The notes under the pieces were generated by a model. That model was not told the origin of the DNA. It saw only the letters and a program-made list of their open reading frames with translations, and searched no databases. Below, piece after piece: positions 2,441 through 54,643 of a DNA stretch of 64,000 nt (position 1 is its first letter; the number at the start of each line of letters is the position of its first letter). Source of the DNA: Ectocarpus siliculosus (taxonomy: Eukaryota; Sar; Phaeophyceae; Ectocarpales; Ectocarpaceae); contig FN648905.1 in NCBI GenBank assembly GCA_000310025.1, positions 490,317 to 554,316 of the forward strand, written 5' to 3'. A program made the position numbers and the translations under genes.

Positions 2441-2611
2441 TCAAGCAAGATGCATCTCCTGGCCCTCCACACGGGCACTGTCGGTCAAAATATCCTCAAT
2501 GGCCCAACGCTTGTCCTGATCGAACGCGAACACCTCGCGAGGGTCTGTCACATAACCCGTGATGGCCGATGCCGCAGCCGTGTAGGGTGATGCCAGGTAG
2601 ATGCCAGCGTC
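2441..2611 (-). CDS. leuC: leuC exon 11 (C-terminus)
   Basis: 56 codons plus TGA, residues 495-550: [27 protein letters not shown], then a roughly 30-residue acidic tail ending EMHLA. The acceptor is TGCCTAG. The tail after DPREV is longer than in many bacterial LeuC proteins; the frame is open and ends at 2441. Confidence 0.94.
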   Translation of the reverse strand, partial: DAGIYLASPYTAAASAITGYVTDPREVFAFDQDKRWAIEDILTDSARVEGQEMHLA

Positions 2612-5600
2612 CTAGGCAGGCATACACGATTCAACGGGGAGATAAGGAATGTGAAACATTGCGTCTGCGAGTTGAGCCTGGAGTAAAAAAAGAAGAGTGA
2701 CGCAAATCAACAACACGCATCGTGTGACAACCCCATGTGGAAGAGAGTGCCGGTGGCGGCAATACACAAATAGCCGGCATGGGTGTGTTGTTAAGTCCGA
2801 AGAAGGCGCAACTGAAGGTTCCATTCCGTTGTCTTCATTCAACAGTAGGGCGCCGGGCGCTGTGGATTGGTGCATCCGAGGGCCAGGCACAAACAATTCA
2901 GACCGAGGCGTTCAAAACACATGGACGGCATGTACGGAAGCCCGAATAAACAGCAGCCCCAAAACCCCGATCATGTCCATCAGGACTTGGAGCGCGGAGG
3001 CCGATCGTCCCAACAACTGGTGAAACAAGTTGTTTTCCTTTTCCGTTCAACGCATGTAGTTCCATATATATTCCCAACCTAATAACAACTCCCGACCTCA
3101 GCAACTGGGCGCGCGGAATGTGCCTCAACGCAACGTCCCGATGGGTATAGCGTTAACATCCGAGTTTGCATGCTCTTCGAACGAGTTTTGGCTGGAAACG
3201 TTACGTTGTAAATTATCAAGATTTTGCCCACCGGGATGTTTGTTTTTCGAAGGCACTAGAGACACCTACAATTATGTTTTGAGTCATGACGCCGGTCTTG
3301 GCCCATTTGGGCGCGTCAATCTCTCTATTACAACTCCCCTGTCGCGAGCTCGAGACTCAAACGGCGAGTAGAGTTACAGCACCGTGAATGCGCACAACCA
3401 TTATTTCAGTCATTTAGCTAGACGTTGGGGTGTGGTGAATCGGCTTGAAATGGTGTTCAAGCATTTGTTTCGGCTGTCTTCCAGACCTGAGCGTGCTAAT
3501 CTTACGATCACAACGCCCCTTGTCGCGAGTGCGAGACTCCAAGGGCGAGGCGAGTTACCGCACCGTGATCCCCGCCTAAATCTCCTGCACCACGGTACTG
3601 TCGACTCGAAAGAATCGCTAAGCTCGTTGGACAAGGTTTTGTTGGAGAACGCCAACTCAAACAATGACTACTTACTACTAGATGAGCTCACTATACTGTA
3701 GATAGCATAGCTCGCGGCTCGCCCATGTTCTGTTCTGCTGCTGTAGACTACTCTACCGCAAGAAAGCTAACTAACTGCAAGATTCCATTATCTACTCAAA
3801 TATAGAAAATGATTCAATTTTGTTTCAATGCAACCTCCAAGTAGGCATAGCGAGGTAGGTAGGATTATGGTCAAGGCATGGGAGGATTGACTGTGGCACG
3901 CCATGCTTGCTTGTGTTCAAATTCTTCTTTCGGTGATGACCATATTTTTGAGGTGACATAGTCTCCCTGAAAGCTTTTCCTGCGAATGCTAGATGATGTA
4001 CGTTATACCAGATGTGTGTGGCTACAACACTCAGTGTGATCAACGCGACAGGCACGCGACTTTATTGTGTATTTTGCTTGCTACGGCTCTGCCTCGCATC
4101 GGATACACCCGCCTACCATCGTATACCCCTACCGGAACAAAACTCGAGGCTGCCCTGTAGTCCAACAAAACATTTAACCATTCACCCGCCTTTGAGTCAC
4201 ACCACCGCTGTATGGGAAGTTGGAACGACAATGGTTGACGTCGTCCTTCCAAGTAGATATAGAACTGTCAACCGACCAAAGGGTTGAATGAAAACCCGAG
4301 CCCGGAGATTTTGTATGAATATGGAGCATTTCGTCTGTTCGGCTGCTCGCCTTCGGTTTCCTCCGCTGGGACAGCGTTATTTCTCGCACTTTCTTCTGCA
4401 TGGCACGCAGAGGACCCGTCGGTACGTTACCGGTTACGTGCGGGTCTCGCGAGACACCGTTGGTGCGCGTTAGGGCCGCCTAGAGTCGCCGGGACTAGCT
4501 CTTTTTTCAGGGGTTGGGAATCCGAACCATAACAGCCTTCTCTGATGGGAAGAAAACTGAAAACAGAACATTTGGTTTGCCCCGCGCCACGCGTCACGCG
4601 CCCACACAGCTGCTGCGACTGTTGTACACACCCACCACACAGCAACTGGCGCATGCGTACCCGCAGCGGGACCAAGACTCTTGGCGCTGCTCATGGCAAC
4701 ATACCACGTGACACAGAAGTCCTCTCGCACAACTCTGGCAACGATCATTTGAATTTCAATTCCGAAAAATCGAAAATTCGAATACAGAAGTTGTGGTACG
4801 GTAGCAGTCTACATCTGTGACTGTTCTTGGGTAAGTTGAGCACCTCTTCGATCCGTTGTTGGTGTTTGTTTGCGTGAAAAAATCCCACAGACCATGGGAA
4901 ACATGATCACAAAAGAAGAGTAAGTGACCAAACACAGTGGATTACAGCAGTAGGACCTACCTGCAGCAAAGACGCCGCTAGCCTAACAGCAAACACTCGT
5001 GCACAAGCGAAAAGTCACGGCTGGAGAAAACAAAATACCCCGCACGTGATGCAATTTCCAGGCAAATTAGTATGCAGGTTGCGCGCACACCGGCACTACC
5101 GAACGTCGTGCCGACCAACCATGCGACAGCGATGACATTGATTGGCCATGTCCTCTTGCGTCGCCCCCGGGAGGCAAATCAATTAACTTCCGCCTGTTTT
5201 CGTGCTTCAGACATCTTTCGCTGGCGGAAGCGAGTCGCTTCTCACGCTCCCTTCTCAGGGGCACGCAAGGATGTCGTCGGTACCTTACCACGCCGAGGGA
5301 GATGAACACAACAAATAAAAACAATCGAAAACCCTACGGCGTGTCATCTGGATGTGGTTCATCGACCCAGATTCGGAGATTTCTACCTTGTGTCCCATGC
5401 GTCCAGGGAAGTTGCGGTTGGTGGTGGAGACGCATTGGAAAGGCTGGTTCATGCGGGCGTACGTGTCAGCTGGCCCCCCTAGGCATGCAGCGCAGGAAGG
5501 AGAAGCAGGTTCCAAGCACCCGGCCTCGCGGAAAATTGATGCCAGCGTTCGTCCACCGATCTGGCTCGCGAAGACGAGATGGGGGGGGGGGGGGGAGGGG

Positions 5601-8600
5601 TGTCAGTCGGGACTACGTTTCACCTGTATCAGAAGTTTGCCAACTGGTGCATCCAGTCGTGAACTGCCCATATTTTCGTAAAGCTCGACGCCACGTGGTT
5701 TTCATACTTGTACCTGACAAGAACGCTTACATCGAGAAAGAGCGACGTGTCGTTTGCTAGATGCACGTTCGAGAAGGTCGAATTGGCGGTTTCAACAAAG
5801 AAAGAAAGAAGAAAGAAAACACGGCTTGCGACGTTGTATTCGGGTGCGCCAATAATGAACTTCCACCCAAAAGGTGTAGGAGTTTATTACTCAATATGAG
5901 TCAGAAGTTATGGGCGCCACTCAACACAGCGGGCAGTTTCCGGCCAACCTCCGCTGACAAGGCTCTCGGCTTGCTTGCGCGCGGACCCTGACCGATTTTC
6001 TGTTCACGGCGACGACAAGGGGAACACTCTCTCCTTCTCTCCTTCGCAACCCCGCTGTCGCGGGCTCGATACCCCGAAACGGGAGCAGAGATGTTGTGCA
6101 GCACCGTGAGCACGCTCCAATCGCCAGCTTCGCTATCCACTGCACTGTTGCATGTACGATTCGGACGTCCGAACTTTTTTTCTTTTTTTTCCATCGGTGT
6201 TGTGGAGGAGAGGGTTTTTCAACACTAGACTACTGCTGTGTGTGTACAAGCCACCCACAGGGACACGATAAAGGAAATTAGTAAGGTGATGGTTTGCATC
6301 ATGGTATGGACTAACGCCGCCACCGGCAACGGGCATACGGGCAAACATGTCCTACTGTATTCTAAAAAAAACTGGGAAAAAGACAACGTTGCCCGATTCT
6401 AAGAATCAACCTGGCTCTTTGAGCATCGAAGTATTCTCCGTATGCTGTCGCCTTCTCTCACGGAGCTTAACGACCATTGCGCGAAATACTTTGGATGTAG
6501 TCCCAGCTACCATATGTTTGCCTAAAGTAACACAACCGGTAGGCACCAACGCACATAAGTCGGGATGGTGTGTGCATGTGTGCGCCAGGGTTCAACCCTA
6601 CTCAACGATAACGATTTCTTGCCGATTTACAGCAGCACGACCCACGGTTCAACCTTCGACTTTTCGAACCTGCCTCTACATGTGGCATACCATCTCGCAA
6701 AAGGATCCTTCGCGGGGTGCAGCACGGACACAGGGCTTACTCCATGGAGTTCTACGTGCTGGACAAAAGAGGCGTCCGACAAACCGCCAGGAAAAAATCA
6801 AGGCCAGACAACAAGTTCCCATGATGTAACATAGCTCCGGCCTCAAGAAGTTGCAGTGAATAGACATCAGTCCTTCCCACAAGTATACCGCGCGCGGCTA
6901 CGTACACGTACGCATCGACTTCAAACGAACAATGAGCTTATGATGCAATTTGCAACGTACCTTCAACGTCTGGATATCGTTGTACACCTTCTGAGTAGCA
7001 GGCACCAGAAAAGTCGGTACCCGAACCTGGTGAGTAGTGACAGACATTGGACACACAATATGAAGTGGGTGCGGCGACCCGAAACCAGGGTTGTCTCTGA
7101 ATGTACCCCACGCACATGACACCGTCCGTAAGGGATAACAAAGACATGCGCATATGCATTTCCGAGGGGTTGACCCCGTCTTAGGAAGAGGTGGGGAGCA
7201 GTTTGGCGGGTCAGATAAAGAAAATGTTCGCCTGGTGCTGTGGGTAACCGACTTGTGGTTAAATTACGCGATATTAACCTACTCCGTTTCGAATGCGAAT
7301 CCACACCTATTGCTACGCACCGCTACACTTGGCGTTGACCATACCGTCTGGCCTTGCGAGCAAAACAGTTCCAAACAAGCCGACTATGTCTGGAACATGA
7401 TGACGTCTTTCTCTCCGGAGCCGGTTTGTCAATTCCACTTCCACCAAATGATGATTGAGAGTATCCAGCGGGCGTTTCCACACTTCGAGAGATCAACAAG
7501 ATTTTTCGTGAGCAACCACCCGGCCACCATTAGTGTTAACCCGAAACATTATCCTAACCAACATCACCAACGGGACCAGGCACCAACCGCGCATTACTCG
7601 CATCTCGCATTGCGCCCCTCCTTGTCCGATTGTCGCACATAGACAGAAAACGGCACGTCGTGATGACTCGTTCGTTCGGTTGGCAAAACTTTTGAGAAGG
7701 CTTGAAATCGATAAGGTCTCACAATCTTGCAGAACAATTACAGCTGTATTCGATAGTATGTTTTCCGGGATCGCAGCTAATTTTTTCCTGTCGCGCGCAC
7801 CGAAGGCAAGCATGTGCGCTGCTATATTTTTCACCTCGCACACAATCACACAGTCCGCAGCATGTGCAGGCGCTCAAGATATGGTCGCTGGGTGCAATGC
7901 TTGGTCGTCAACTGTTCGTGCAACGAAGTACGCACGCAACCGCGGGCGCAAAATGTGCACAGTCACCGAAGCCAAGATCCAGGGCATAATATCCTCCCAC
8001 GCGACCCCATGTCGTGCGTCGGGTTCCGTTCATGTTACATGCTCAAACAGGGTCTATACGTTCGAGCAATTTGTCAAGATTTTCGAGTGGTATGAACACC
8101 ACACCGGAGCCGCACATTTCTGGCGAGTCAGAATGGCCGACTGGGACCCAAACCACATTCCTTTCTCTACCAGTACATTTGAGCCCTGTTTGGTACAGCT
8201 CCAATGCGTTCATCTTGTTTCACCCGTGCCCAAGTATCCTAAGAACCGGAGTGATATTGCAATCATATGTTTCGTCGAATTAGCAAACGGACGCGGACCG
8301 TAAACTCCAGTTCTTACCTTTTGGTTTTGGAGTATCCGCGCTGCAGCAGCAAAATCCTCGGTCTTCCCTCCAGTGCAAGAGCCAATGTAGACGCGGTCGA
8401 TTTTAGTACCGCGGCAGTCCTTGGCCAAAGCCTTGTTGTCTGGAGAGTGGGGCTTGGCCACAACAGGCTCAAGGTTGCTCATGTCGTACCTTTTCTTCGA
8501 GAAGTACTTGGCCTGTGGAAGCAGTCACGCAGAACGCAGCTTGTTGTGCCCCTGAAGCAGGCCTTGCTTCTGTATCACAGCTGTATGAAGAAAATGTGTA

Positions 8601-11600
8601 CCAGGTTGTAGGCCAACAAGAGTAACATTTTTCAAAGCCGAACATTGCGTCGCGATACCGCTGACTAAATAGTAACGGTGCGTGAGAGGAATGAAAGACC
8701 GCGAGCTGGTGGAACAAAAGACAGCAAAAGGAGCTAAGCCTGAACACGAAACGGCAGCAGCAGCTTTCACCAGACTCGTAAGCAACATGTGTAACACAAA
8801 GAACAAACAGCTCCTGCTCACGTTGGGATCGGCCTTGAATATTTCGTATGGCTTATTCCCTGCGTTCCTGGCGTTCACGTACGCCGTAGTGACGTCATCT
8901 GCAGGAATCACTCCATTTTTCCCTCCGGCTTCGATTGCCATGTTGCACCTGGCCCCGTAGGGTAGACAGGCCGGAGTCGCAACCAAACAGCGCTCGGTTT
9001 CACCAGATGCACCATGTCGTTGACGAAGCTGCGGAGGCACACTATAAAACGCAATGGTGGCCTATCGGCGAGAGCAACCGACCTAGTCGCCACTAGACGT
9101 ATTCGGGCAGATGTACACACTCCTCTGCCTCATCATCTCATGATCAAAACAGGCGGTATTTCGGGTCACACTAATCTTGACACCCGACATCGATACAACA
9201 CTACTACATGCCGCATGTATGGACAAACAACAAGGTACAGCAGATGCACTACGTTAGAGAATCACGTCCAGCCGCGGGAAACTCACAGAGTTTGCCGTTC
9301 TTCCATGGAGAGTTGGCCCAAAGCTGAACCTGCGAACTCCATGGAGCGGTAAGTAGCGCCCGCCACACCAATATCGCCAATAATTTGGAGAATGATATCC
9401 TGCATGTCGACGTCCGGGTTGAACAAGTCGTCAGCGGAACCGCACACGAAATAGGCAAGTCGAGGAAGTGTACTCGGCCATGTTTGAGATATCGCGTGGC
9501 AAGGAGGAACGCTTTCTGACGCTGCCGGATGTGAACAGCGTAGAACGGCACCGCTGTGCCGTTATATAATTCTTGACATGATCACGGTTCGGTGTGGTGC
9601 GATGTGGTGCGGTGCGGTGCGATGCGTCAAGTACACATCTCACGGTTACAAATATGGCAGATTTTTCCGGTCCTTGATCGAAAACCGCCCGCGGCCTTGG
9701 TGGCGGTACCCCGTCGAAGAAAACCACTCAAATATTAAGGTCATCCGTGACAAAACAACGGGAGTATATCCACAAGTTATCGTGAAATACATTTGGTCTA
9801 GTCTTGTGGTCCATCGAAAGTAGATTTGTAAGCACCTTCAGCTGTGCATGGAGGCCGCCAATGACAACCTCCGCCGCCTGGCGGCCAGAGAACCCGATAC
9901 GAAAAAAAAAAGTACAAACCATTTTGGCTGCACCAGGCGGCTCATGTCAACACTCGCTACTAATTGTGCATAACTCAGACAGAGCTGACGTTGACAACAA
10001 TTTGCTCTCCCGCACGGGCAGCGTGGACACATGAAGCTTTGCCTTTCCTGGTGTGCGTCTGCATGGAAACAACGCGACTTGACTACGGTTTTTACCGCGG
10101 TTTGGCCACGGAGAGGGACAAATGGCACCGCGATAAACCGCATCTTGGTTCCTTTAGAATCCCCGCGACGCGGTGCGGTTTTGTTCATCTCAGAACGTGA
10201 TGTGCGAAGCGAACCGCACACCCAAAAAAAAACGCAGCGTATGAACATCGCTAGTCATTGCCGAGAGCTGTAAAATCATGACCGTCGTGGCTCGGCGAGC
10301 AAAAAGTAGCGGTATCATGTACACATCGACAGCGTGAATGTCCAGTCCACTCCATCGACTCTCCCTACATCCGCGCGCTGAAAGCATGGAGCAACCACTG
10401 TTTTCCCCAATCGTACAAGCAGTATGACTACGGATGTAACTCAGTTTGTGTCTGTCCATCGAGTCAGCCCCGCGGGGCCCTTGCCGAGGTTTATCTTTAC
10501 GCGTTGGCGAGAGCTATTCGAAAAATGCGTTCCACATAAGAAACGATTTCACACAAACGAGTGAAAATCCGTTTTTCAGATATTTGAGACTTCAATGCAT
10601 CCCTCCGGAGTGGGGTAAAGAGTGCAAGGCGGCAAGGGGTGACGTAAATGCAAAAAGCAGAGAGAGGAAGAAAAACATATGTTGGATGCATACGGAGAAT
10701 ACATATTGCATATCAATACACTTCAAAAAAGGGGTTTGTTCCATAGTCGGGGAGCTAGCTCGGCGAGGTGTTCCTTCGATACATGTGACGATCCTTCTGT
10801 AGTCTATAGTTCAATTTTCTGGATTTTAGTTGGTTGAAAGCCCGTCGTCGTCATCACGCGGCGGTGTTCTCCAAGCAAACGCACACCCACCACCCAGCGT
10901 GCGAACGTGACCGTAGCACCATAGCATGTCTTAAAATCCCGGTGGGGATGATGAAGATAAGACAGTAGCAGTCTACAACGTCTCCTTCGTATTCAGGACT
11001 CAAGTGAACTGAAAACAAACAACACAAAACTGCGACTTGAATCCTGTCGACACAGGGGGGGGTTCCTCAAACCGACCGTGTTTTCTGTTCCAAAAAAGAT
11101 AAATCGCCGTTGTGGGGTATGCATACGTTACAGTAGTACAGTGTGTGACCTGATCTCTCTTCTGACGTTGTGGCTAATAACTTTGTTGGTACGTGCCAGA
11201 AACAGCTTGTCACCGCTTACATTTTTGGTTGCAGCTGTGCACAGCTGTTGTGGAAGTTACGTCTCACGGGGGACTGTTCAAACTGATCTCTCTCCTCGAC
11301 ACGTTATGTATGATTGCTCCAATATTTTTTTGGGGTACACAATCTCAACACACCATGATGCTTCGATCACCGCCTTGCAGTATATACGCTGGGAACACTA
11401 ACGTATGCTCTTCCCCTCTCGTGCCCCGCCCACACGTAAACGCTCGCCCCCCAGCCGCTCTGACAGCTGCCGGGCGAACCCTCAGCTGTTGTTGGCATGC
11501 TGACACATGGTTAAACATCAGATCAGAAACAGCTGCACCGCGTACGTATAGGTTTGTTGAAGCTGACGTCTTCTGCCGGGCTGTTTGACACGACAGGCGA

Positions 11601-44600: not shown

Positions 44601-47600
44601 CGGCGAAAGTTTCAGGCATCGTTCAGGCATTGTTGACTGGGCTGTGTCCACAGTCGTCGACTTTCGTGCATGATTCTGACCCAACCGTGGACGCGCATCC
44701 TTCCTGTCGTGGGTGCGGCGGTACTCGCGACCAGTGGGGGTAAAACTGGGGGTAATGATGAGGGAGGGTGGTTCGTTCGGTTGTTCGCGCACCGGGGAGA
44801 AGGTCTGAGAATTTCCGCGACAGAAACTGAATCCCTATCGGGCTACAGAACCGTGGCTAGCATAGCGTTGTAGAACGACGTGGCGAACAAACGCGTGGAT
44901 TGGAGCTCCAGTCGGGGAGCTCCCGTGAGGTGGTTGTTTGTACTTTTCCGCTGCTTTGACTGCGATGCGAGGTGAATCGTTAACGTTAGCTGCGTTGGGG
45001 AGGACTAGCGTGAGCGGAGGCAGCGCCGTGAACCTTGTCGTCGTAAAATTTTTGAGCGCGGGGAATTCAGTCGCGGCGAAAAAAAGAGAAACACAGACAC
45101 AAAAAAAGATGTCAAAAGGATGCTGGTGTGGGCAGAAGAAAGACAAAATGCTTGCGTTTAGCACCGGTGTCACCTCGATTGAAATTCCTTGGACATTTTT
45201 TCGAGGCATAAATTTAGGTAGCGCGAAGGCACCTCCGTTGTCTCGTGCTCGTAGCTTTCGCGAGCTGAGAGAAACCGGCCGCGGTCAAAAGATCGCGATA
45301 GAAAACGCGGTGCCAAATTTTCTTTTAGTTTTTGTTCCGTACCAGAAACAAATTCTATGCGGATTGGAATACATTCCGTGCGGCGAAGGAAGCCATACGA
45401 TACACATTCATATCATGTCGTAAGAAACTTGCAGGCTATTTGGGGCCGCTGCCCAATGTTAATAATGTTTTCCATCTCCTCCGCTACAAGCCCATGCTCC
45501 AATATCTTGAGACTCCGTTCGGGGCCGCGGGCCTTGAAAACAGCTTCGTCGCACGTGACGTTGCGTTCTCGAGAAATATGGCGGTATCCACAATTTGTGG
45601 TCTACAAAATGTAGCCGCACTACGGATACACGATATTGAAAGGGTTCGTCCTTCTCGCTTGCAAAAATCACTGTGAGCAAAAATAAAGCAGGTTGCAATA
45701 GTCACACCCTTTCCCGTCCCAAACGCTTGTCTTTCTCCATTGGACAGTCGACTTCACGAACGACTTTGTACCACTTGGTCGGTCTTTGACAAAAGTTGCT
45801 GTCATCACCGTGCATGCATATCACCTTCCTATGCTGTTTCATGGAAAAATATTAACAAATATCGCACAATTTCTTCCATAGCCAGCTTCTTGGTCCAAGA
45901 GGTGTCTGACACACATTAAGTTCGTGCAAACCTTTTGCCATTTTTGACAATCTCGGGTTCAACTCGACACTGGCCCTTCCAAACCAGATGCCCGGAGTAT
46001 CTGCAAGACACCTTCATGACGGATGCAGCTGTCTCTGAGGCGATACAACTGTGAGTGGGTAGTACTTGTTCACGAGACAGACTGCTCAAAATATCGACAA
46101 TGACCACACACTTTTGGATCTGCAGTCTTGAAGCGGTCACAAATGTGTTCGCTATCGAGCCTCAGCAGTGGACTTGGCGGCGAAGATTCTTCGTGAGGCC
46201 GGCGCTTGAGCTAATCAACTTGATGCTAAACTCGCGTGGGCAAAACCAAAGCTTGTGGATCCTTCCGTGCTTGAGCTAGCTTTCTTCCAATTCCAACCTG
46301 CGTTTGCAAATGCTGCGTGTGCCCGCTACTGGTGCACATGGGCAACACAGATGCGAAATTCGGTTTGGAGCGATCAAATACGTGATCAAAATACTGCATG
46401 TGAGTGTGCAAGGTGGAAGTAACATGACGAGCCTTTCGTCTCATCAACATTTTGGGACACTGCGGCACGGACCAATTATTTTGTTTCACAGATTTGTTAT
46501 TAAATATTGGGGAGTGTCACGCCTGAAGGAATCATGGTAAAAATTGTCTCTCAAAACCCCGTTTGCAACCAGCACATCCCGATGAGCGTGCTACACCTAC
46601 ACTTTCGGGATAGTTCTGCCAACAAGAAAACTATCATTATCAACCTCCCACACCCGAAGCAATGTTCGAGAGGAGAGATGACATAAATGCTGCACATGTC
46701 TCGATATTCTCGAGAACTGAAACACTCTTGGTCACCACACCGTGAGGCATTGGGACTACTGGATGAACCAGGTGCGATTCAAGTCAAGAGGCGAAACATG
46801 TGGCCCATGTATGTGCCAACAGTCATAGGGAAGTGCCAGCATTGCCCTGGTGATTAGGCTAATTCGCGGGTACAAGCATCTCTTACACCCAAATACCATA
46901 TATTCCTAACCTGTTGGTTGACGAAGTCCCGAAGGATGTCAACATTGCGATTAGCACGGGGGTCTGCTGTAAAGATATAGTGGTCCGGGATTATGACGAC
47001 GCCTTCTGGATCCCACACCTGCAGCAGAAAATGGGCAAAGCGACGTACGCACACATTGTGCGAAAGGTTCAGAGGGAAATAATTACTTCCTCGTCCTGTA
47101 TCATGCCAATGACCCAGTTTTACGGCGCAGTATGTTCCGGTATCAACTTCCGACAATTCATAGTACCAGCCATACCCGCCAATATTGCACCCAGGGCGCG
47201 GAGCACGCACATGCTGTGAACACTTCTCTTGCGAAATACCTAAACGACATTATCAACGCTCTCAAGCGAAAGAAGCAGCACTGAAAGGATCTATCAGCGT
47301 GTTTGGCTTGTCACACATCATACACCAACTCAAGTGCGAAAATCACAAAGAGAAAACAAAAATCTTGGGGGTGGGTAATTTATCTAACTTGAACACAATG
47401 TTCGCCTAGATGTCGGCAGTGCCAGGCTGATGCGATATTGCTCTCGCTGGGACTGTTCATGGCTATAGTGTTTCTGATGAGTGTTACGCAATCTCATTCC
47501 AGCCAGGAGGGGAAACGGCACACCTTTTTCACACATTCAAATGTCGAGCTTGCCAGGTTTTGGTCATCAAACATAATGTCAACAACGCACACAACGCAAA

Positions 47601-50600
47601 ACTAGTTTTTCAGAACTTCTGTGCCCCCAGAAGAAGTCCTCACAATCTTCAAAACAGACCAATCGACCAATCCCCGCCCCTCCAACCGTATCCGCACGAG
47701 CTTCGTCTACCATCGAACAGTTGCCTCCAAGGCATCAGAGGGCGCATAATTCAACAACGTGCTTAACGTTCACCTTGGCCTTGGGACCAAACTCTTTGTA
47801 GAAGTTCCCGATGGTGCCAGGGCCGCAGACGTCGTGTGTCATCAACACGTCCGTTTTGACCCACACGTTGTCGTTCGGTGCCACGCTTTGCCGATCGCAC
47901 GCTTTCGCGATGATCTTTTCAGTTAGAGTCATCGGCTCAGAAACCTGCCATGGTCAATATTAGTCATCAAATAAACGATCGTTTGTGCACGAATGGTGAT
48001 AGAAAAATTCAGTGTTTCTCCAGCTGCCCCTTTGCACATTCTTGACATCATTCTGATGCACACAAATGTACCCTAGTAATGCTGTACGAAGAAGACCGAT
48101 TTGGAACCTTTATAACTCATGGCGTCATGCGAAAAAGGGTAATTAGCAACAGGCGCAAGCAAAAATTATCCCATCTGTGTTTATAGTCACCATGTGCGCT
48201 GGAGGCGACACAACAGGTGTTGTGTCTCAGCGCGGAATGCCACACCAGGCGAGGACTCCTGCCCGGCGCACGAGGCCTCATACAATACAACACTTTCAAC
48301 ATTCAATGTTCCAGCACACCGTGTACGGCCTGGATGCGGGAGCGACTTCTGAATGACTGCCTTATTGCACTACAAGGGCGAAGGACGACGTGTTTTCGTT
48401 TTATTTCCAATACGTGTTTGTCCCCCCCCACCGCGATTGCCATCGGGATTGGATTTTCGTCGCATGGCAACGATGTTGTTAAACAAGCGAATCGCTTCGC
48501 GAGCTCGGCAACCAGATTACCGGGGGTTTTTTAACTTCTTTTTTTTTTGCGGTAAGGCCGAGTCTTACGGCTTGATTATTTCGGAGTTTTTTTTTCTCTC
48601 GATCGGGCGGGGGTGGCCTGAAGGGAAAAAAATATCAAGATCCGAACGACCGTCTTACGGTTCCTCGAGGTATACTTTTTTCCCTTAGGAAAAAAGAGGC
48701 TGATTCATGTTCTTGTGGGTCACAACATGCTTCAGTACACGGTTTTGGCTCGTGTGCGACCAACAAGACACCGAGCGCCCTGCTTATGGGTCGCCTGCAG
48801 AGGGCATGTCTATCATCGCACGCTATCGGCTGCAGTTTGTGGATGTCGTCGGCCAAAGGCCTCTCTCTGATGGCATGCGTTGTACACTGATCACACCGGA
48901 GCGAGCAGCATAAAAAAGAGGCAAGGTCCAAAAAAGGCAACACTGAATCACACCTCGGTTCACGTTTGCACGCCGTGTGCAATCAAAACTGCACAAAACG
49001 CTCTGTTTCTGGTACGCGAGCAGAGGGTACGAGTATGACCACACGCCATTGGCTGCAGTTTGTGGATGTCGACGGGTTAAGGCCTCTCTCTGGCGTGCCT
49101 TTTCAACTGGTCACACATGCAGCAGGCGCAAAAACGGCTCTTTTCGGCCGAAAGGCAAGAACGTCAGCAGAGCAGTAGCAGGGTTGACGTTTTCGGCTCA
49201 TGTGCGGCCAACACGACGCAGAACGCCCTGAATTAAAAAAACCTGCAGAGGTTTGTGCATGACCTCATGATACTGGCCTCTGTTTGGCCAGCAGACGGTG
49301 CAGTTCCTCGTTCTGGCACGATCGGGGTGTGACCACGGGGTACCCCCCCCATTTCTAACAGCGATATTCCAATAGGATCGCTGTTAGAAAAAGGCCCCAA
49401 CTTTGTAACAGGCCGGCCGGAATCGCTGTTGGAAATTGCGCTGTTGGATTTTGGGCTGTTGGAATTGGCCAAATTCCTACCCGTAAGACGCCCAAATGAT
49501 TTTTTGGGCTCAGAAAAGGGCCCCCCCCCGCAAATCCAACCCGGAAAAAAACAAGCCGTATGAGTCGACCTAACCATCAGAATGGTGGTCGAGTACATTA
49601 GGTTGTGCAGGGTCGGGAACCCTCACTCCGCGCAAACGGGATGATTGCACCACGTTGAGTTAAAAACGGTCAAGCACCCTCGAGGCAGTTACACAGTGCC
49701 TACAACTGTCTATGAAAGTGGAAGCACCAGAAAATATATTAAGCCATGCGCAGCTGTCATCCGTGCGCAAGGAAGTAAGCACATATGCCGAACACCCTTA
49801 GCAGGATGCAGCGCGCCCTTCATGCGACTCGCCGACCACCTCACGGTGCTTCGCGCTTGGTGATGTGAGAGCCTGGTCCGGTGAGAACCCGGCGCGCTCC
49901 GTCCCGGCTTTGTAGGGATGCGAGGTCATGCACGACTTTGAGTACACCCTCCCCCCCCCTTATCTGGACATAAGTGGTTTGGCGCTGTTGGCAAAGCGCC
50001 GTAAAACATGCCACCCCAACTATAGCCCCTATATAGTGTGCGCTACCAAACACGCGCTACACATGGACGCATGGACGAGTGGAGTGAGGATAGCTGCTAA
50101 CTGAAACCTCACGGGTTGAGTAATGTATGAGATTGCCGGACACATAGACGTGTTGAGTGAGCATAGCTGTACACTGAAACCTCAAGGGTTGAGTGAGGTT
50201 TGAAATTGCCGGACACATAAACGCGTGAAGTGAGGATATCTGCACTCTGCAACCTCACAGGCTGATTGGTATTGGAGATTGCCGGGCACATAGACGCGTT
50301 GCGTGAGGATAGCTGAATATTGAAACCTCACGGGTTTAGTTAAGTTTGAGATTGCTGGACACATTGACGCGTTGAGTGGGGATAGCTAGCTGCATACTGA
50401 AACCTCACGGGTTGAGTGTGGCGAGTGTCGGACACATCGACGCATTGAGTGAGGATAGGTGCATACTGAAACCTCCCAGGTGATTTGTATTGGAGATTGC
50501 CAGGCACATAGACCTGTTGGTGAGCATTGCTGCATACTGAAACCTCACAGATGGATTGTTTTTTGAGATTGCCAGACGCGTAGACGCGTTGAGTGAGGAC

Positions 50601-53600
50601 AGCTGCATAGTGAAACCTCACGGGTTGGGTGATATTTGACACTGCCGGATACACATAGACGCGTTGAGTGAGGATGGCTCCATACTGAAACCTCAAGAAC
50701 GGCGTTGTTGGTACACAGACGAATGGCGACGAATGTGACTAGGAACGGGCAGAAAAAGTTAGTGTGCGACACGGCACACAAGAACGATATTCCTATTCCC
50801 TTGAGGCCAAGAAACATCACCCCGACGACAATATGCAGCAACCACCGCTGGAACTAGTCCACCATGCTGTAACACACTACTGCTGTAGAGCGCGAACGGC
50901 TTTTGTGACGTTCCCTTCGATTCAATCCAACCGCCATCCGCATGCTGATTGGGATGACGCCGTTGCAGTTGGTCTGGGCATGGGGCAACGTCTGGTTGCT
51001 GTTGACCTGTGCTTCTGAGAGAAGAGATGAGTGTGCTGTGTGGGGCGAGAGTCAGAGTGTGTGGAGTGCGGCTGTGGAGCGCGTGATGTGGGAGGCACAA
51101 AGCGAGGACAAGTTGTGCATATACATACGTGCTGGGCATTACATACGTGCACAGCAACCCGGAGAAAGATATACACCCCGAAAGAAGTGTAGTCTGAGTC
51201 AAACTTTAACGAACGGGAGAAATGGCGGCTCCTGGGCCCGAAAATTCTGAATGCTGGGAGGCCTGTCAGTAGCCGACGGATATCTGGCACTTGAAGGAAC
51301 AAACAGTTGGTGGCGGATGCGCTTCGCGGTAACGAAGAGAAAGGACGGAAATAAATCGGCGGTGGTAGCAGGTAGCAGGAGGAGCCGAATGCTGCTGACG
51401 GAAGAGACGAGGGTGCTGTGCGAGACGAGCGTGGGAGTGTGTGGAGCGCGTGGTGTGAGCGTGGCGATACATCCATGTTATCTGGCACTTGAAGAAACGA
51501 ACAGCTTTTTGCGGATGCCAATGCAACGCGGCAGAAGGAGAGGCGTTGAAGATGTTGCGCGAAGACATGGATTTTGCCGGGTCAGCAGGAGGAGCAGAGT
51601 GCCGCTGAGAGAAGAGATAAGGGCACTGTGTGGGGCGATAATCAAAGGGTGTGGAGTGGGGTTGTGGAGCGCGTGGTGTGGGAGGCACGCAGCGAGGAGA
51701 GAACTGCGGACTAATAGTGGGCACGTTGTGCGTAAACTGCGAACGATTTGATGGGCATGCACATACCCCGGAGAGAAGAGTAGTATAAATGGCGGCTCTT
51801 GCGACCGAAAAAACTGGATACTGGGAGGTCTGTCAGCAGGCGACGGATATCTGACGCTTCAAGAAAGAGGCATAGCAGGAGGAGCTGAGTGCTGTTGACA
51901 GAAGAGACGAGTGTGGTGCGCGGCGAGCGTGGGAGTGTGTGGAGCGCGTGGTGTGAGAAAGGAGAGAACGTCGAGAGAAAATAAATCCTTGAGAAATGCA
52001 GGAGAGAGAACGGACGGAAAGAAAACCCGACACCTCTATGTCCAAGTAGAGAGGACGGGAGAAATGGCGGCCTGTGAGACCCAAAATGGGTATGCTGGGC
52101 TGTCGGCGACCCACGCGAAAATCCAAAATTATTGAACGGCAGAAAGTTAGAAGAACGATGACGACAAATTTTCTAAGTATGAACATCGAATGGGTTTATT
52201 GTGATCACATATTTGATGTGATTCAAGTGTGCAAATTTCGGACAAGATTTTTTATTTAGTGCTTTTTTCGGGATAGCGCTCACTGAAACCTCAAAATGCA
52301 AATGGAGAATTTGGGTGAGGCTCATTTCAATGCGGACCTGGGTCTATGGTCACAAGAAGAATGGAAATATACGGAAGGTTGGGCGGGGCCACCGACCGTT
52401 GCAGGGGGCTTCACCAAGTCCACTACATACATAAAATGATCCACTTCCGAGGAAAAGGATGCCGTGTATAGAAAACGATCCATTCGTGAGTAACGAAAGG
52501 ATGCAAGAGAACGTACGGTTCGGTGATATGGCATGTACCGGTGATATCGCACCCCCGTGCGATACAAAACCAGAACGAAATCACTATTCGATTTTCGCAC
52601 CGTATTGCACTGGGGTGCGGAATGTATCGGGGGTGCGATATCACCGACACTAAATGCCCCGAGTGGTTCCAGGGACACTCAGTGCGATGGAGGTACCTCA
52701 TGGTTTCGTCGCGTATCATGTATCGCAACACCTGTGTCTGTAGTACGGACGTGACGTGTTGGGTACATGTACTGCACCTCAGAATTTTCGCACAGGCATG
52801 TGCGTCGAAAGTACCCAGTACTGCTGCAGGGGGTTGTTGATATGCAGTGTCGCACGTATCGGGGTTATCGCAGCCCCTGTGCGATACAAGTTCAGGGTCG
52901 AAATGATATACTTCGATTATCGCACGGGGATCGGTGATATCGCACGAATCGAAGAAACTGTGCGATAAGAAAACGAGTTCATTTAGAAATCGGTCGCACC
53001 CCCCTGCGTTCTCTCGCATCAATAACGCACACACACTGTTCGGCTTCGCGGTCCACGAGGGAAAGGGATGTATGAATCCGTCTCGTGGTCAAGCTAAGGC
53101 GAGCACCGCAGGAGGAAAGGTGGGACAAAAAAAAAAAACTCCCGGGTGACCTATAACTTTGTGTGACTTCGGCTGGCCCTTTAAACACATACAGGTAGGT
53201 GTGTAGACTGGCGTCAGATTAGATGGGACGAACACACATTGTCGCACTATACTTCGGGGGTACCTCTCTCCAGTACATACGGTGTCATGCATGGCTGCCC
53301 TCGTTCTTACAGACAAAAGGATGAAGAGCATAAAGCGTGGAGCCACCGTTGGAGACCGACACATTGCAGCCTGAACGGTGTGTACCGAATCCACCTCGAC
53401 CGTAGTGTCCGTGTCCATAGCAATGGCGCAGATCGTGCGTGCTTGTGTGTACAAGGCGTGTCTCATCATGTGGCAAGTGTGGTGCGCGCGGACCCGTGGG
53501 TAATAATTCGATCAACTTTGGGATGTTGCCCTTGTGTAACCGTGCGATAAAGTGGCGAGTTCGTCGAGATTCAAAAATGGCATTGTACAGCTTCTCTACA

Positions 53601-54643
53601 CAGGGTGTGGTACACAATGTCACCTACCATACAAACCGTAAGGGAGTGAAAAACAAGGTAGATGAGTTGAACTTGGGTAGATGAGTTGAACTTGGGTAAC
53701 ATTGCCACGCGGACGTGGTGCGCCCATTACAAAACGTGAAGCAAATTCTCTCTTTTCAGTTGGAATAGGAAGTCGCCGGTGAGTTCTCGGAAAATTGGTG
53801 AGCAACGGGGCAGCTACACCATTGCCCGGGCGCAGGGCAGCACAACAACGGCGGTGTGTTTGTTGTGCAGGCAGTGAAAGGTGAGGTACGAATGCCTAAT
53901 ACCTCCTACGGGGTGCTTTAAAGTAAGCTGGGAAAACCGTTACATCGGGCCGCAAAATACTAGTGGTATTTAATACCGGGTACGGTCTCTTCAGATTTCG
54001 GGAAGAGGGGCCAAGGGAGACACGGATACAACCAGCTGTGCCCAGTTGTTTCTGACGTCCTCTTCGCGAGTCGTGTGCCTCAAGCACATGCAAAATCCAA
54101 ACTCTTGATCTACCTGAAACGTAATTGTGAACATATCTGAGGAGTGAGAAACAAACAGCGGTAGCTGCAGCAAATCAATCGTTGTCACATTGCTTATAGT
54201 TCTAGGCGACATGGAAATATTAATATTCCTCGCGTGAGGGGTTCTAGTGACTTGAACGCAGCCGTCTATGATCGGTTCAATATCTAGCCACAGATATATT
54301 GTGTGACGTTCTTGTTCGCCGCTCCGTTTTCAATGGTCATTGTCTTGAAAGTGAGTGATAAGAAATTGAATCGATACTTGTGTGCCCTCGAATGCAAACA
54401 TCTTGCCTGTACGGAGGTGGCCATGGTTGCCGCGCCCTTCCTTGTCGCCTCGTTTGGTTTGCCTTCTCGACGCTGTCGTCCCGCAGGCGGGCAAGCATGC
54501 AGGTACCGCCCTGCCGTGGGTGTCACCCTTAGGCTTTGTCGCAAAACGAAGGATGTTGTCGTCCCGCACAGGCTGAGTGCTCCAAGCGATGCATACGCCA
54601 CGCAAATGTAGCTGGGGACACATTTCCTTCCCTTTCGCGCCAT
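2441..54643 (-). CDS. leuC: 3-isopropylmalate dehydratase large subunit, plastid precursor (11 exons)
   Basis: Isomerises 2-isopropylmalate to 3-isopropylmalate in leucine synthesis, with a small LeuD subunit not seen here. Exons, in order of transcription: 54643-54407, 47944-47774, 47018-46911, 25377-25264, 22647-22471, 9399-9287, 8948-8822, 8512-8318, 7026-6961, 5560-5387, 2611-2441. Together they give 1653 nt, 550 residues plus TGA, with no internal stop. Residues 1-79 are a bipartite plastid pre-sequence; about 84-550 match plant and bacterial LeuC end to end. Visible motifs are THDVCGP (115-121), PDHYIFTAD (147-155), GTDSHT (214-219), GSCTGGK (Cys395) and SPSCAAC (Cys459, Cys462). The three cysteines are the expected iron-sulfur ligands. 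All introns are phase 0 except intron 6 (phase 2). Length agrees with plastid LeuC (about 500 residues plus a leader). Homoaconitase is the main alternative, but the motif set fits plant-type isopropylmalate isomerase better. The family call is very secure; exon 1 is the least certain part. Confidence 0.95.
2612..5386 (-). other. leuC: leuC intron 10
   Basis: 2775 bases, GTAGAA..CCTAG. Contains two copies of a SINE-like repeat at 3290-3580. The rest shows no coding similarity. Confidence 0.85.
3290..3580. repeat. Two tandem copies of a dispersed SINE-like repeat
   Basis: Both copies share a core: a CAC/CAA-rich lead, CTGTCGCGAG, a CGAGACTC-like box, GGCGAG..GAGTTAC and GCACCGTGA. A third relative lies at 5990-6115. 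On the minus strand the core resembles a tRNA B box (GGTATCGAGCC in the third copy). Origin from a tRNA-derived SINE is an inference. Confidence 0.4.
5387..5560 (-). CDS. leuC: leuC exon 10 (second and third Fe-S cysteines)
   Basis: 58 codons, residues 437-494. Contains [20 protein letters not shown] with Cys459 and Cys462, the CxxC ligands, then [14 protein letters not shown]. The acceptor GAGCCAG lies about 20 bases downstream of a 15-base C tract on this strand. The donor is AAG|GTAGAA. The join to exon 9 is slightly shorter than in plant enzymes in a variable loop, so the acceptor could be a few codons off. Confidence 0.92.
5581..5595. repeat. G15 homopolymer (polypyrimidine tract of intron 9 on the minus strand)
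   Basis: Fifteen consecutive G on the plus strand, reading as C15 on the transcribed strand, about 20 bases from the exon 10 acceptor. Confidence 0.85.
5990..6115 (-). repeat. SINE-like dispersed repeat, third copy
   Basis: Contains CGCTGTCGCGGGCTCGATAC and GCAGCACCGTGAGC, matching the 3290-3580 copies. On the minus strand the GGTATCGAGCCCGCGAC box resembles a Pol III B box. Only partial similarity is seen. Confidence 0.35.
6961..7026 (-). CDS. leuC: leuC exon 9 (22-codon microexon)
   Basis: 22 codons, residues 415-436: [20 protein letters not shown] then LK. The core [11 protein letters not shown] is diagnostic of LeuC. The acceptor is CTCACCAG and the donor is AAG|GTACGT. Confidence 0.94.
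7027..8317 (-). other. leuC: leuC intron 8
   Basis: 1291 bases, GTAAGA..CACCAG. It has a long antisense open frame on the plus strand but no recognisable domain or coding signal. Confidence 0.85.
8318..8512 (-). CDS. leuC: leuC exon 8 (first Fe-S cysteine)
   Basis: 65 codons, residues 350-414. Contains [16 protein letters not shown] and [14 protein letters not shown]. Cys395 in this motif is the first iron-sulfur ligand of the family. The acceptor is CTTCCACAG and the donor is AAG|GTAAGA. Confidence 0.96.
8513..8821 (-). other. leuC: leuC intron 7
   Basis: 309 bases, GTGAGC..CCACAG. The shortest intron of the gene, with nothing else seen inside. Confidence 0.9.
8822..8948 (-). CDS. leuC: leuC exon 7
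   Basis: One base plus 42 codons, residues 307-349: [20 protein letters not shown] and the variable insert ending KADPN. The acceptor is GGGGCCAG and the donor is AAC|GTGAGC. Confidence 0.95.
8949..9286 (-). other. leuC: leuC intron 6
   Basis: 338 bases, GTGAGT..GCCAG, the single phase-2 intron. Nothing else seen inside. Confidence 0.9.
9287..9399 (-). CDS. leuC: leuC exon 6
   Basis: 37 codons plus two bases, residues 270-306 and part of 307: [20 protein letters not shown], then [17 protein letters not shown]. The acceptor is GACATGCAG and the donor is CT|GTGAGT. This is the only exon that ends inside a codon (phase 2). Leu307 is completed by the first base of exon 7. Confidence 0.94.
14562..15829 (+). 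pseudogene. Degenerate spliced gene with CxxC/His cluster, nested antisense in leuC intron 5
   Basis: Exon A (about 14562-15034) reads a Gly/Asp/Glu-rich stretch, then [20 protein letters not shown] and [21 protein letters not shown] donor G|GTGAGC at 15034/15035 and acceptor CAG at 15193 define a 159-bp intron. Exon B reads [53 protein letters not shown]. The frame then shifts by one base at a C run near 15420 into [20 protein letters not shown] and [18 protein letters not shown], a CxxC with His residues that could bind zinc. A second shift at the A run near 15668 leads to a Ser/Pro-rich tail. The pattern GPC-x2-C, LN..RKL-like helix and N-IPR-x resembles uncharacterised proteins repeated in fungal and algal genomes (from memory, unverified). 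The 5' end is unclear. Probably a decayed element-borne or host gene; the indels could also be assembly errors. Confidence 0.5.
16930..17290. repeat. Dispersed repeat, copy 1
   Basis: Shares GTGTGCGTGTATTTTTTGGATCAGCATGG..CCCTAACCGGCTGACCGATGAAAA-like order with 21040-21150. On the minus strand both read a peptide of the form SRL(G/A)R(S/A)MLI.K. Function unknown. Confidence 0.5.
19570..20060. repeat. Tandem duplication rich in CACAGCAGTGTG words
   Basis: A block with CCGCTGCTCTCCGTTC, CTGTGACCCGT, GTACAGTG.RTGTATGC and ATGTGTGGGACA occurs at 19570-19675 and again at 19741-19872. It is followed by repeated GTGTACAC and GCACACAGCAGTG words up to about 20050. A weaker related patch lies at 18960-19050. 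Confidence 0.65.
21040..21150. repeat. Dispersed repeat, copy 2
   Basis: Contains GTGTGCGTGTTTTTATAATT and GCTAACCGGCTGACCAATGA, matching the 16930-17290 copy in the same orientation. Confidence 0.5.
21345..21535. mobile_element. Fragment of the CAGTAGG pogo/mariner-like family
   Basis: About 190 bases match, in inverse orientation, the 42787-42960 end of the complete element: CTATTGGG, TGAGGGCCCCGTCCTCAA, GCCACTATATCGGGTTGAGA and CACTA..TCGGG words occur in the same order. It ends in CCACTACCGTA, a mutated terminus. The other end is missing. Confidence 0.7.
22471..22647 (-). CDS. leuC: leuC exon 5
   Basis: 59 codons, residues 211-269. Starts [20 protein letters not shown], holding the conserved Asp and His of the aconitase active-site region, and ends DHLLAK. 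The acceptor is GATAAAG and the donor is AAG|GTAAGA. It is followed by the 13-kb intron 5. Confidence 0.96.
22648..25263 (-). other. leuC: leuC intron 4
   Basis: 2616 bases, GTAAGA..GATAAAG. No repeat family or coding similarity was recognised in it. Confidence 0.85.
25264..25377 (-). CDS. leuC: leuC exon 4
   Basis: 38 codons, residues 173-210: [20 protein letters not shown], then [18 protein letters not shown], a nearly invariant stretch of plant-type LeuC. The acceptor is CTTAAATTAG and the donor is GAG|GTAAGA. Confidence 0.96.
26021..26039. repeat. Left target site duplication of LINE 1
   Basis: CCCCATACTTCGGTATCAG, matching 30941-30959 at 18 of 19 positions (T versus C). Confidence 0.75.
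26050..26578 (+). pseudogene. LINE 1 endonuclease C-terminus and linker
   Basis: Reads [13 protein letters not shown], then after a frameshift near 26115 [18 protein letters not shown] and a 110-codon stretch with [20 protein letters not shown], the linker that precedes the reverse transcriptase in such elements. A TAG at about 26573 ends the frame shortly before the inserted DNA element; the same frame resumes on the other side. Confidence 0.8.
26588..26595. repeat. Left 8-bp target duplication of nested TIR element
   Basis: AAAAAGTG, identical to 28548-28555. Confidence 0.85.
26642..26965. repeat. 42-bp satellite array, left block (7 units)
   Basis: Unit: TCTTCCAGGAGGGTGCGCAC followed by CTAGTTGGCTGCAGACACCT and AC. 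Two alternating variants occur (GCAGACACCTAC and GTAGATGACTAC). Ends with CACCTAGGTG. Confidence 0.9.
27535..27905. repeat. 91-bp minisatellite inside the nested TIR element
   Basis: Copies begin GTTCTATATTGACACCTGCC at 27623, 27714 and 27805 (exact 91-bp spacing). A divergent copy precedes them and decayed copies follow to about 28117. The first intervals are almost identical, so amplification is recent. Confidence 0.9.
28118..28468. repeat. 42-bp satellite array, right block (about 8 units)
   Basis: Same unit and same orientation as the left block, again terminated by CACCTAGGTG. One unit carries a 4-base insertion (CACCTAAATAGTTGG). Confidence 0.9.
28548..28555. repeat. Right 8-bp target duplication of nested TIR element
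   Basis: AAAAAGTG, identical to 26588-26595. Confidence 0.85.
28556..30889 (+). pseudogene. LINE 1 reverse transcriptase and C-terminal zinc motif, frameshifted
   Basis: Motifs in order: [22 protein letters not shown] near 29100; [13 protein letters not shown] (motif A) near 29311-29350; [10 protein letters not shown] (motif B) near 29491-29520; LFADDF (motif C, FADD at 29617-29628); then a thumb-like region, YTYLGVEI, and [20 protein letters not shown] (CxC..H..C) at about 30572-30634. Frame changes occur near 28735, 29150, 29345, 29632, 30000, 30235 and 30500, so no functional protein can be made. RNA-templated DNA synthesis is the family's function. Confidence 0.88.
30941..30959. repeat. 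Right target site duplication of LINE 1
   Basis: CCCCACACTTCGGTATCAG; one mismatch to 26021-26039. Confidence 0.75.
31080..32505 (+). mobile_element. Second LINE fragment, different family, reverse transcriptase to C-terminus
   Basis: Reads [37 protein letters not shown] (motif A region with Asp), [15 protein letters not shown] (motif B), a frameshift, then [12 protein letters not shown] (YADD at 31611-31622), [39 protein letters not shown] and [16 protein letters not shown]. The motif C sequence and overall wording differ from LINE 1, so it is another family. Frames are broken near 31500, 31600, 31945 and 32080. No endonuclease and no target duplication were found. Confidence 0.82.
34100..34225 (+). 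other. Coding-like fragment with CxxC, copy 1
   Basis: Reads [20 protein letters not shown]; the related [20 protein letters not shown] lies on the minus strand at 37420-37545. Shared wording suggests two remnants of one repeated coding element. Identity unknown. Confidence 0.4.
37420..37545 (-). other. Coding-like fragment with CxxC, copy 2
   Basis: Reads [20 protein letters not shown], related to 34100-34225 on the opposite strand. Both are too short and decayed for a family assignment. Confidence 0.4.
38855..39103 (+). other. Coding-looking open segment, unknown
   Basis: About 80 open codons with C/G-rich third positions: [20 protein letters not shown], then [20 protein letters not shown] and CCVPCAMGG. 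Preceded by GATAG, which could be an acceptor, and followed by a frame break in a T run. No family recognised; could be an exon remnant or chance. Confidence 0.2.
39655..40646. mobile_element. Palindromic (foldback or long-TIR) element spanning the gap
   Basis: Outer ends are GTATACCCACCCCTTTCTCA at 39655 and, inverted, GTATACCCACCCACCCCTTT ending at 40646. Long inverted stretches match inward: TCATTCTGATGCATGCAAAA, CGTTTCTTTACTTTCGGGCA, GGTTGCCCGATTTCGTCCG, CCGGTGGGTAT and CACCTTTGTCTGCTGTGTGA. A GTGCGGTGACGTGGAGGTCG block also occurs on both sides in direct orientation (about 40015 and 40307). No transposase was seen. The scaffold gap lies in the middle. Confidence 0.75.
40078..40177. other. 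Assembly gap (100 N)
   Basis: Exactly 100 N, the usual placeholder for a gap of unknown size, located at the centre of the palindromic element. Confidence 0.99.
40781..41212. repeat. Near-perfect 216-bp tandem duplication
   Basis: Copy 1 40781-40996 and copy 2 40997-41212, each starting ATGGGGGGGTAGCAGTA and ending in GATTGTTGCTG. The copies differ at a T/C near the start and otherwise read the same. 216 is a multiple of three, so a minus-strand frame stays open through both. That frame has no recognised domain. Confidence 0.92.
42787..44022. mobile_element. Pogo/mariner-like non-autonomous element (CAGTAGG ends, TA duplication)
   Basis: 25-bp perfect terminal inverted repeat CAGTAGGTGGCCCGATATAG followed by TGGCA, flanked by TA on both sides (42785-42786 and 44023-44024). 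Both ends are crowded with further GATATAGTGGCA and AATAGTGGCA words in both orientations. No transposase frame is visible. TA duplication and CAGT-type ends are established traits of Tc1/mariner (pogo) elements. A MITE is nested at 43141-43363 and a fragmentary relative lies at 21345-21535. Confidence 0.85.
43141..43363. mobile_element. 223-bp MITE nested in the pogo-like element
   Basis: Ends are ATACCGTAGGTTGAATAAGA and, inverted, ATACCGTAGGTTGCATAAGG, extending about 50 bp with TATCACACCCCCTGGACC in both arms. No coding capacity. A relative with GATATCACAC..TTTTCAAAGCTCGATTACTCC wording sits at 56312-56518. Confidence 0.8.
46911..47018 (-). CDS. leuC: leuC exon 3
   Basis: 36 codons, residues 137-172. 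Begins [19 protein letters not shown], the second conserved LeuC block (PDHYIFTAD), and ends in DFVNQQ. The acceptor is CTGCTGCAG and the donor is CAG|GTTAGG. It is followed by the largest intron of the gene (21.5 kb as assembled). Confidence 0.95.
47019..47773 (-). other. leuC: leuC intron 2
   Basis: 755 bases, GTGAAC..CTGCAG, phase 0. Nothing else seen inside. Confidence 0.9.
47774..47944 (-). CDS. leuC: leuC exon 2
   Basis: 57 codons, residues 80-136, starting [11 protein letters not shown] and containing [19 protein letters not shown], the first conserved block of the mature enzyme. The acceptor is CATGGCAG, with a CTAAT branch-like site about 15-20 bases upstream. The donor is AAG|GTGAAC. 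Confidence 0.93.
48745..49300. repeat. Degenerate ~225-bp tandem repeats
   Basis: GGCTGCAGTTTGTGGATGTC followed by GGCCTCTCTCTG occurs near 48828 and 49053. The flanking GGCTCRTGTGCGRCCAACA block occurs near 48748 and 49195, about two periods apart. Two to three units. Confidence 0.7.
49351..49475. repeat. Hairpin with repeated CGCTGTTRGAAA words
   Basis: TTTCTAACAGCGAT and its exact inverse ATCGCTGTTAGAAA flank a short loop. The words ATCGCTGTTGGAAATTG, GCGCTGTTGGATTTTG and GGCTGTTGGAATTGG follow. The layout resembles the word-rich end of the pogo-like element at 42.8 kb, but no opposite end was found. Confidence 0.5.
50060..50700. repeat. 73-bp minisatellite (about 9 units)
   Basis: Unit contains ACGCGTTGAGTGAGGATAGC, TGCATACTGAAACCTCACGG and GTTGAGTGAGGTTTGAGATT followed by GCCGGACACATAG. 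Units vary by substitutions and small deletions. The non-multiple-of-three period means the minus-strand open frames here are by-products. Confidence 0.9.
50990..52100. repeat. Degenerate tandem blocks with GAGAAGAGAYRAGKG and GTGTGTGGAGCGCGTGGTGTG
   Basis: Four blocks (near 51010, 51391, 51600 and 51891) repeat the order AGAAGAGAC/TGAG..GTGCTGTG, GTGTGTGGAGTGCG, GTGGAGCGCGTGRTGTG. Between them a GGGAGGCCTGTCAG..CGACGGATATCTGGCACTTGAAG block recurs. Spacing is irregular (about 200-380). No real protein is implied. Confidence 0.7.
52535..52970. repeat. Inverted and direct repeats of TCGCAC/GTGCGATA words
   Basis: GGTGATATCGCACCCCCGTG followed by CGATACAA..CAGAACGAAAT..TTCGATTTTCGCAC is repeated near 52868-52945 as TATCGCAGCCCCTGTGCGAT..TCGATTATCGCACGG. 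The inverse GGGGGTGCGATATCACCG lies at about 52636. A further GTGCGATAAAGTGGCGAG occurs near 53541. Resembles ends of a decayed transposon; boundaries unclear. Confidence 0.55.
53658..53697. repeat. 19-bp tandem duplication
   Basis: AGATGAGTTGAACTTGGGT occurs twice in a row. Confidence 0.9.
54407..54643 (-). CDS. leuC: leuC exon 1: bipartite plastid targeting peptide
   Basis: 79 codons from the ATG at 54643. Residues 1-7 are basic (MARKGRK), 12-28 are hydrophobic, and Thr30-Ser31-Phe32 resembles the heterokont signal cleavage site with Phe at +1. The following 45 residues are rich in Arg, Ser, Thr and Ala, with almost no acidic residues before position 60, as expected of a transit peptide. 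The exon ends in MATSVQ, followed by GCAAGA, a GC-type donor. Joining it to exon 2 in phase 0 reads through cleanly. No GT donor nearby gives an open frame into exon 2. The exon was inferred from position, targeting features and phase, not homology, so it is less certain than the others. Confidence 0.65.

Follow-up and report, generated by a model that had tools for sequence, protein, structure and literature searches.

A LeuC-type gene of Ectocarpus siliculosus spread over about 52 kb, probably within the male (V) sex-determining region

The window analysed here, a 64,000-nucleotide stretch of the Ectocarpus siliculosus genome (C340:490317-554316, where C340 is contig FN648905.1), carries an intact nuclear gene with spliceosomal introns, apparently single-copy, whose product we read as the large subunit of isopropylmalate isomerase (IPMI), LeuC. 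With a probability of about 0.8, we consider that this gene lies in the non-recombining V sex-determining region (SDR) and that its introns have been swollen by repeats to a total span of about 52 kb. A preliminary description of the window had noted the stretched gene and overlooked the probable cause, namely its location in the V-SDR. The kind of place and the enzyme itself are familiar; what is new is the particular gene, together with where it lies and its reading as LeuC, and the value of the result lies in the linkage and the re-annotation.

The gene model in the preliminary description, 11 minus-strand exons totalling 1653 nt (550 codons and a stop), was reproduced exactly, including AG at all ten acceptors, GT at nine donors and GC at the exon 1 donor. 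Exon 1 (54407-54643), tentatively placed from its frame and splice sites, encodes a putative presequence that is signal-peptide-like and then reads TTTSF. The enzyme follows in exons 2 (47774-47944), 3 (46911-47018), 4 (25264-25377), 5 (22471-22647), 6 (9287-9399), 7 (8822-8948), 8 (8318-8512, with IGSCTGG and the first Fe-S cysteine), 9 (6961-7026), 10 (5387-5560, with SCAAC and the other Fe-S cysteines) and 11 (2441-2611, including the stop codon). All ten were recovered by spliced alignment, and exons 5-8, 10 and 11 by family search as well. From the first to the tenth, the introns measure 6462, 755, 21533, 2616, 13071, 338, 309, 1291, 1400 and 2775 bp, the two longest being intron 3 (25378-46910) and intron 5 (9400-22470, placed by the spliced alignment).

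For this alignment, 21 prokaryotic proteins of the LeuC group were combined into a profile, which was spliced onto the minus strand. Between 47932 and 2534 it placed ten exons, all with GT-AG introns, covered the whole enzyme and scored 1130. Eight unrelated controls scored 33.1-39.9: the other strand gave 39.9, the two strands of 60 kb of other C340 DNA 36.5 and 38.1, shuffled profile columns 33.1-36.1 in four runs, and 40 kb from other contigs 34.9. The related aconitase locus on contig C54 reached 190 with the same profile. A chance joining of open frames was rejected for exons 2-11 on these scores, and the claim of a single intact LeuC-type frame is backed over the same exons. Of the span of about 52 kb, the part from exon 2 to exon 11 stands; the upstream end depends on exon 1, which is plausible, and the 21,533 bp of intron 3 are nominal because a run of exactly 100 N, which looks like an assembly gap, lies within it at 40078-40177.

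On sequence grounds the protein is read as LeuC, within the IPMI-homoaconitase group, and a homoaconitase would be compatible with the same sequence. It covers the whole of PRK00402 (aconitase/3-isopropylmalate dehydratase large subunit family) at 451.7 bits against a cut-off of 385, and the whole of TIGR01343 (homoaconitate hydratase family) at 417.3 bits against 385.7. Scores for the strict leuC, LEU2 and archaeal IPMI models fall below their cut-offs (TIGR00170, 206 of 560 bits; TIGR02083, 395 of 611; TIGR02086, 374 of 410), and by these models, which were built for prokaryotes, the substrate may be isopropylmalate or homoaconitate. The three cysteines of IGSCTGG and SCAAC, which we take to be the Fe-S ligands, align with those of solved archaeal isopropylmalate isomerases. 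Identity to the 11 closest prokaryotic loci (PRK00402 group; Nitrospinota, Chlorobi and Lentisphaerae) is 53-58% in the best segment of a 331-residue query. Unlike these prokaryotic genes, the algal gene has introns and a putative eukaryotic presequence, and its protein carries a short insertion in the DRGNFKA region that is absent from the first prokaryotic reference. Two other identities were rejected. Every equivalog model for the TCA-cycle aconitase scored far below its cut-off, the fused C-terminal domain of that enzyme is absent and PF00330 stands alone in the protein; a bacterial or plasmid origin was set aside on the ten introns and on window positions 1-24000, which gave no plasmid match.

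Four family searches of the genome, in which weak exons and N stretches can be missed, matched only the LeuC locus and the C54 aconitase, and a second LeuC copy was neither found nor retained as a candidate. The small-subunit domain PF00694 was matched on C54 (the aconitase) and on contig C26 (E 1.2e-4, with a second weak piece at E 0.4), where LeuD-like exons can be read. In Arabidopsis, the accessible text of PMC7308503 describes a single large subunit, the small subunits being separate. The gene here resembles this plant-type IPMI in its full-length domain, its conserved Fe-S cysteines and the small-subunit-like matches elsewhere in the genome, and differs from it in introns of up to 21.5 kb and in a contig with sex-region markers. 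Calling it a plastid gene, as the preliminary description did, is loose: LeuC is nuclear with spliceosomal introns, and any plastid targeting would depend on exon 1.

The SDR reading comes from the neighbours of LeuC on C340, which at 683,462 bases makes up 0.36% of an assembly of 189 Mb in 492 contigs. Ancestral V-SDR genes named in PMC12592211 include MIN (HMG), STE20, a MEMO-like gene, a casein kinase and a GTPase-activating protein; the HMG gene is Ec-13_001750, and the partner of Ec-13_001810 is SJ13722 (PMC5463336), a Memo-like gene (PMC8278619); Ec-13_001910 is STE20-like and Ec-13_001980 is a ubiquitin C-terminal hydrolase (PMC6027523). Four kinds of published SDR gene served as our markers: HMG, Memo, STE20-type kinase and ubiquitin hydrolase. 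On C340, one of the genome's 11 HMG-box matches lies at 107 kb (E 9e-5, weak alone; the box's first half can be read in the adjoining frame), and the sole Memo match from the genome search lies at 214 kb. A kinase exon at 425 kb, one among 138 matches listed after 120 of 678 candidates were scored, has OSR1 and SPAK as its closest solved relatives and is of STE20/OSR1 type. A UCHL5-type hydrolase occupies 612-624 kb (UCH_C, PF18031, E 4e-10; UCHL5 structure match, E 2e-9). The genome search with hydrolase family PF00443 gave 48 matches, none of them on C340; UCHL5 belongs to the other hydrolase family.

All four markers are found on one contig and on both sides of LeuC, orthology being judged by similarity rather than by trees, and their order (HMG, Memo, STE20, hydrolase) is the numerical order of Ec-13_001750, 001810, 001910 and 001980. 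We predict that they correspond, as orthologues, to the four published V-SDR genes. LeuC, at 493-545 kb, sits between the kinase exon and the hydrolase, and would fall inside the V-SDR because it lies between the last two markers, provided that locus numbers follow the chromosome and that gene order is conserved. The weakness of the HMG match when taken alone, the abundance of kinases (at least 138 matches) and the lack of a PF00443 match on C340 count against this reading. As far as the accessible literature describes the V-SDR of Ectocarpus sp. 7 and Saccharina japonica, C340 is like it in having the HMG, Memo-like, STE20 and ubiquitin-hydrolase genes on one contig, in being repeat-rich with long introns, and in bearing an aconitase-family member, a kind of gene found among the Saccharina male-specific ones. 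Sex linkage and suppressed recombination of LeuC are predicted on this reading.

The composition of the contig is consistent with this. Ectocarpus SDRs are described as having more repeats, fewer genes per length, larger introns and lower GC (PMC12477816), with repeats and larger introns also noted in PMC8278619. Of the 64,000 window bases, 23,831 resemble other parts of the window or other C340 DNA compared. Per 10-kb piece, the repeat-like share is 14-59% in six window pieces and 10-67% in 22 other C340 pieces, against 0, 0, 4, 0 and 21% in five pieces with genes taken from other contigs. C340 supplied the majority of the pieces, which tilts this comparison in its favour. The window has a GC content of 0.508; the 22 C340 pieces range over 0.491-0.534 (mean 0.506), and six pieces from other contigs over 0.514-0.537. 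C340 thus appears repeat-rich, with longer introns and lower GC, as judged against a sample of other contigs that is small and biased and whose GC range overlaps its own. One repeat could be named within the gene. A Pfam scan of nine intronic and flanking open reading frames of the window returned no family for eight and a reverse-transcriptase fragment for the other, at 31023-31511 on the plus strand (PF00078, E 6e-9), in intron 3 and antisense to LeuC. Three further plus-strand frames in intron 3 (26090-26575, 28705-29160 and 29579-30262), for which Pfam gives no family, look LINE-like by eye. Window positions 29100-30944 are 85% like C340 DNA at 430-440 kb, and the neighbourhood of the intronic reverse transcriptase resembles both that stretch and 470-480 kb, where another reverse transcriptase lies.

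The mechanism we favour would run as follows. Once LeuC resided in the male SDR without recombination, insertions into its introns would have been purged poorly; retrotransposons and other repeats could then have piled up in a number of the introns, with the exons preserved by selection, so that 1.65 kb of coding sequence came to cover about 52 kb. LeuC is a length outlier in its genome, and the claim that its introns are unusually long held up against control genes. Exons 2-11 take up 97 bp per residue, and the ten introns (intron 1 included) have a median of 2008 bp and a mean of 5055 bp. By comparison, ten CCT loci (one of them seen in part) need 9-21 bp per model position, and the gaps between their adjacent pieces are 515 bp in the median and 2561 bp at most (n=33); the C54 aconitase takes 18 bp per residue. 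In published work, mean intron length is 530-740 bp in three brown algae (PMC6418280), and Ectocarpus introns have a median of 524 bp for autosomes and 765 bp for the sex chromosome (PMC12477816). Long genes do occur outside C340. The branched-chain amino-acid gene ilvD (C9:5867207-5888380) has large introns, spans 21 kb over most of the gene and takes 44 bp per residue. LeuC could accordingly be an ordinary autosomal or pseudoautosomal gene in the tail of widely varying brown-algal introns, with the sex-gene neighbours incidental, and pseudoautosomal regions are themselves repeat-rich, at 39% transposable elements in Ectocarpus against 22% for autosomes and 51% for the male SDR (PMC12477816). 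We regard this as unlikely, given that LeuC needs more than twice the length per residue of ilvD, that markers flank it on both sides on the same contig, and that an aconitase-family gene is male-specific in Saccharina (PMC8278619).

The two other alternatives concern the gene model itself. Exon 1 could be a chance open frame, with the true start in exon 2 or in another first exon and a span of about 45 kb, and we give this a substantial though minority chance. Homology does not reach exon 1, and its codon usage is background-like: it scores -0.185, against -0.25 for non-exon open stretches, 27.8% of 1266 of which score as high, and 0.12-0.40 for exons 2-11, its training set. Candidates of its type also arise by chance, at 0.15 per 16 kb of random sequence (at least one in 12.5% of runs) and at 2, 1, 0 and 2 in further stretches of the window (the fourth of these is its entire plus strand), and exon 2 has a methionine at the start position of bacterial LeuC. 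Against this, the 16 kb upstream within the window hold no other candidate of this kind, and exon 1 combines a basic start, a hydrophobic stretch, the SF of TTTSF and an in-phase GCAAG donor. A GT donor that would equally preserve the frame lies 6 bases upstream of the GC donor. Complex-plastid presequences of heterokonts are bipartite, with a phenylalanine at the cleavage site, and exon 1 is plausible as such a presequence, from which plastid targeting may be proposed. Far less probable is a misjoin, in which exons 1-3 and exons 4-11 would be two loci of different origin wrongly scaffolded together, the outcome that the preliminary description said would refute its model. The two sets of exons are indeed joined across the apparent assembly gap in intron 3, and other N runs are present on C340. 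However, the protein runs from exon 3 into exon 4 in phase, without gap or overlap, the two parts are complementary, on one strand and in the correct order, and genome searches found no other LeuC-type exons. The run of N is intronic, with exon 3 about 6.7 kb away and exon 4 about 14.7 kb away. A 216-bp unit occurs twice at 99% identity at window positions 40779-41210, some 600 bases from it, through recent duplication or an assembly effect, and elsewhere a 4,301-base N run (C340:486016-490316), perhaps a gap, ends exactly at the start of the window.

A LeuC gene in the V-SDR may also bear on published SDR genes. In the accessible text of PMC8278619, three 'aconitase family' genes of Saccharina japonica are male-specific, and one of the three, the putative conserved SDR gene SJ10505, is discussed as a TCA aconitase. 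The gene described here differs from that published aconitase in being LeuC-type and intact over about 52 kb, and its sex linkage is predicted from markers. If the Saccharina genes are orthologous to it, their function would be re-read as leucine synthesis, as would the role of the gene in males, and the three annotations could be fragments of a single long gene, a splitting that the preliminary description's remark that gene finders would fragment such a gene would predict. At a little under even odds, we propose that the male-region 'aconitase' of brown algae is LeuC, an indispensable enzyme of leucine synthesis present in sex-linked, non-recombining copies (V in males, and a diverged U in females) and in no autosomal one, and that its grown introns split the annotation so that three kelp models represent one gene. 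Because exon-wise searches gave no second LeuC, females should then carry a U copy of their own, which is a simple prediction. Our literature search, with supplementary tables outside its reach, found no paper naming an SDR gene as isopropylmalate isomerase. Ahmed et al. reportedly listed a 'homoaconitate hydratase' among Ectocarpus SDR genes in 2014; the search found no paper with that name for such a gene. If the SDR reading is right, LeuC is a tangible example of introns growing in a haploid (U/V) sex region while the exons stay intact, with its length measured against genes elsewhere in the genome.

Several minor features of the region were also observed. Tandem arrays lie in intron 3 at window positions 26634-28466, with 42-bp units (twice) and a 91/182-bp unit, and in intron 1 at 50065-50695, where a 73-bp unit is repeated about 8.6 times. 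Two coding-like open frames of no firm family lie on the plus strand at C340:621555-622509, flanked by the two parts of the UCHL5-type gene; the second, which matches Plant_tran below threshold (E 0.03), is possibly a DNA-transposon remnant. About 14 kb downstream of the LeuC stop and on the same strand, a DUF4442 exon (C340:478692-478862, minus strand, E 4e-11) possibly belongs to the next gene of the region.
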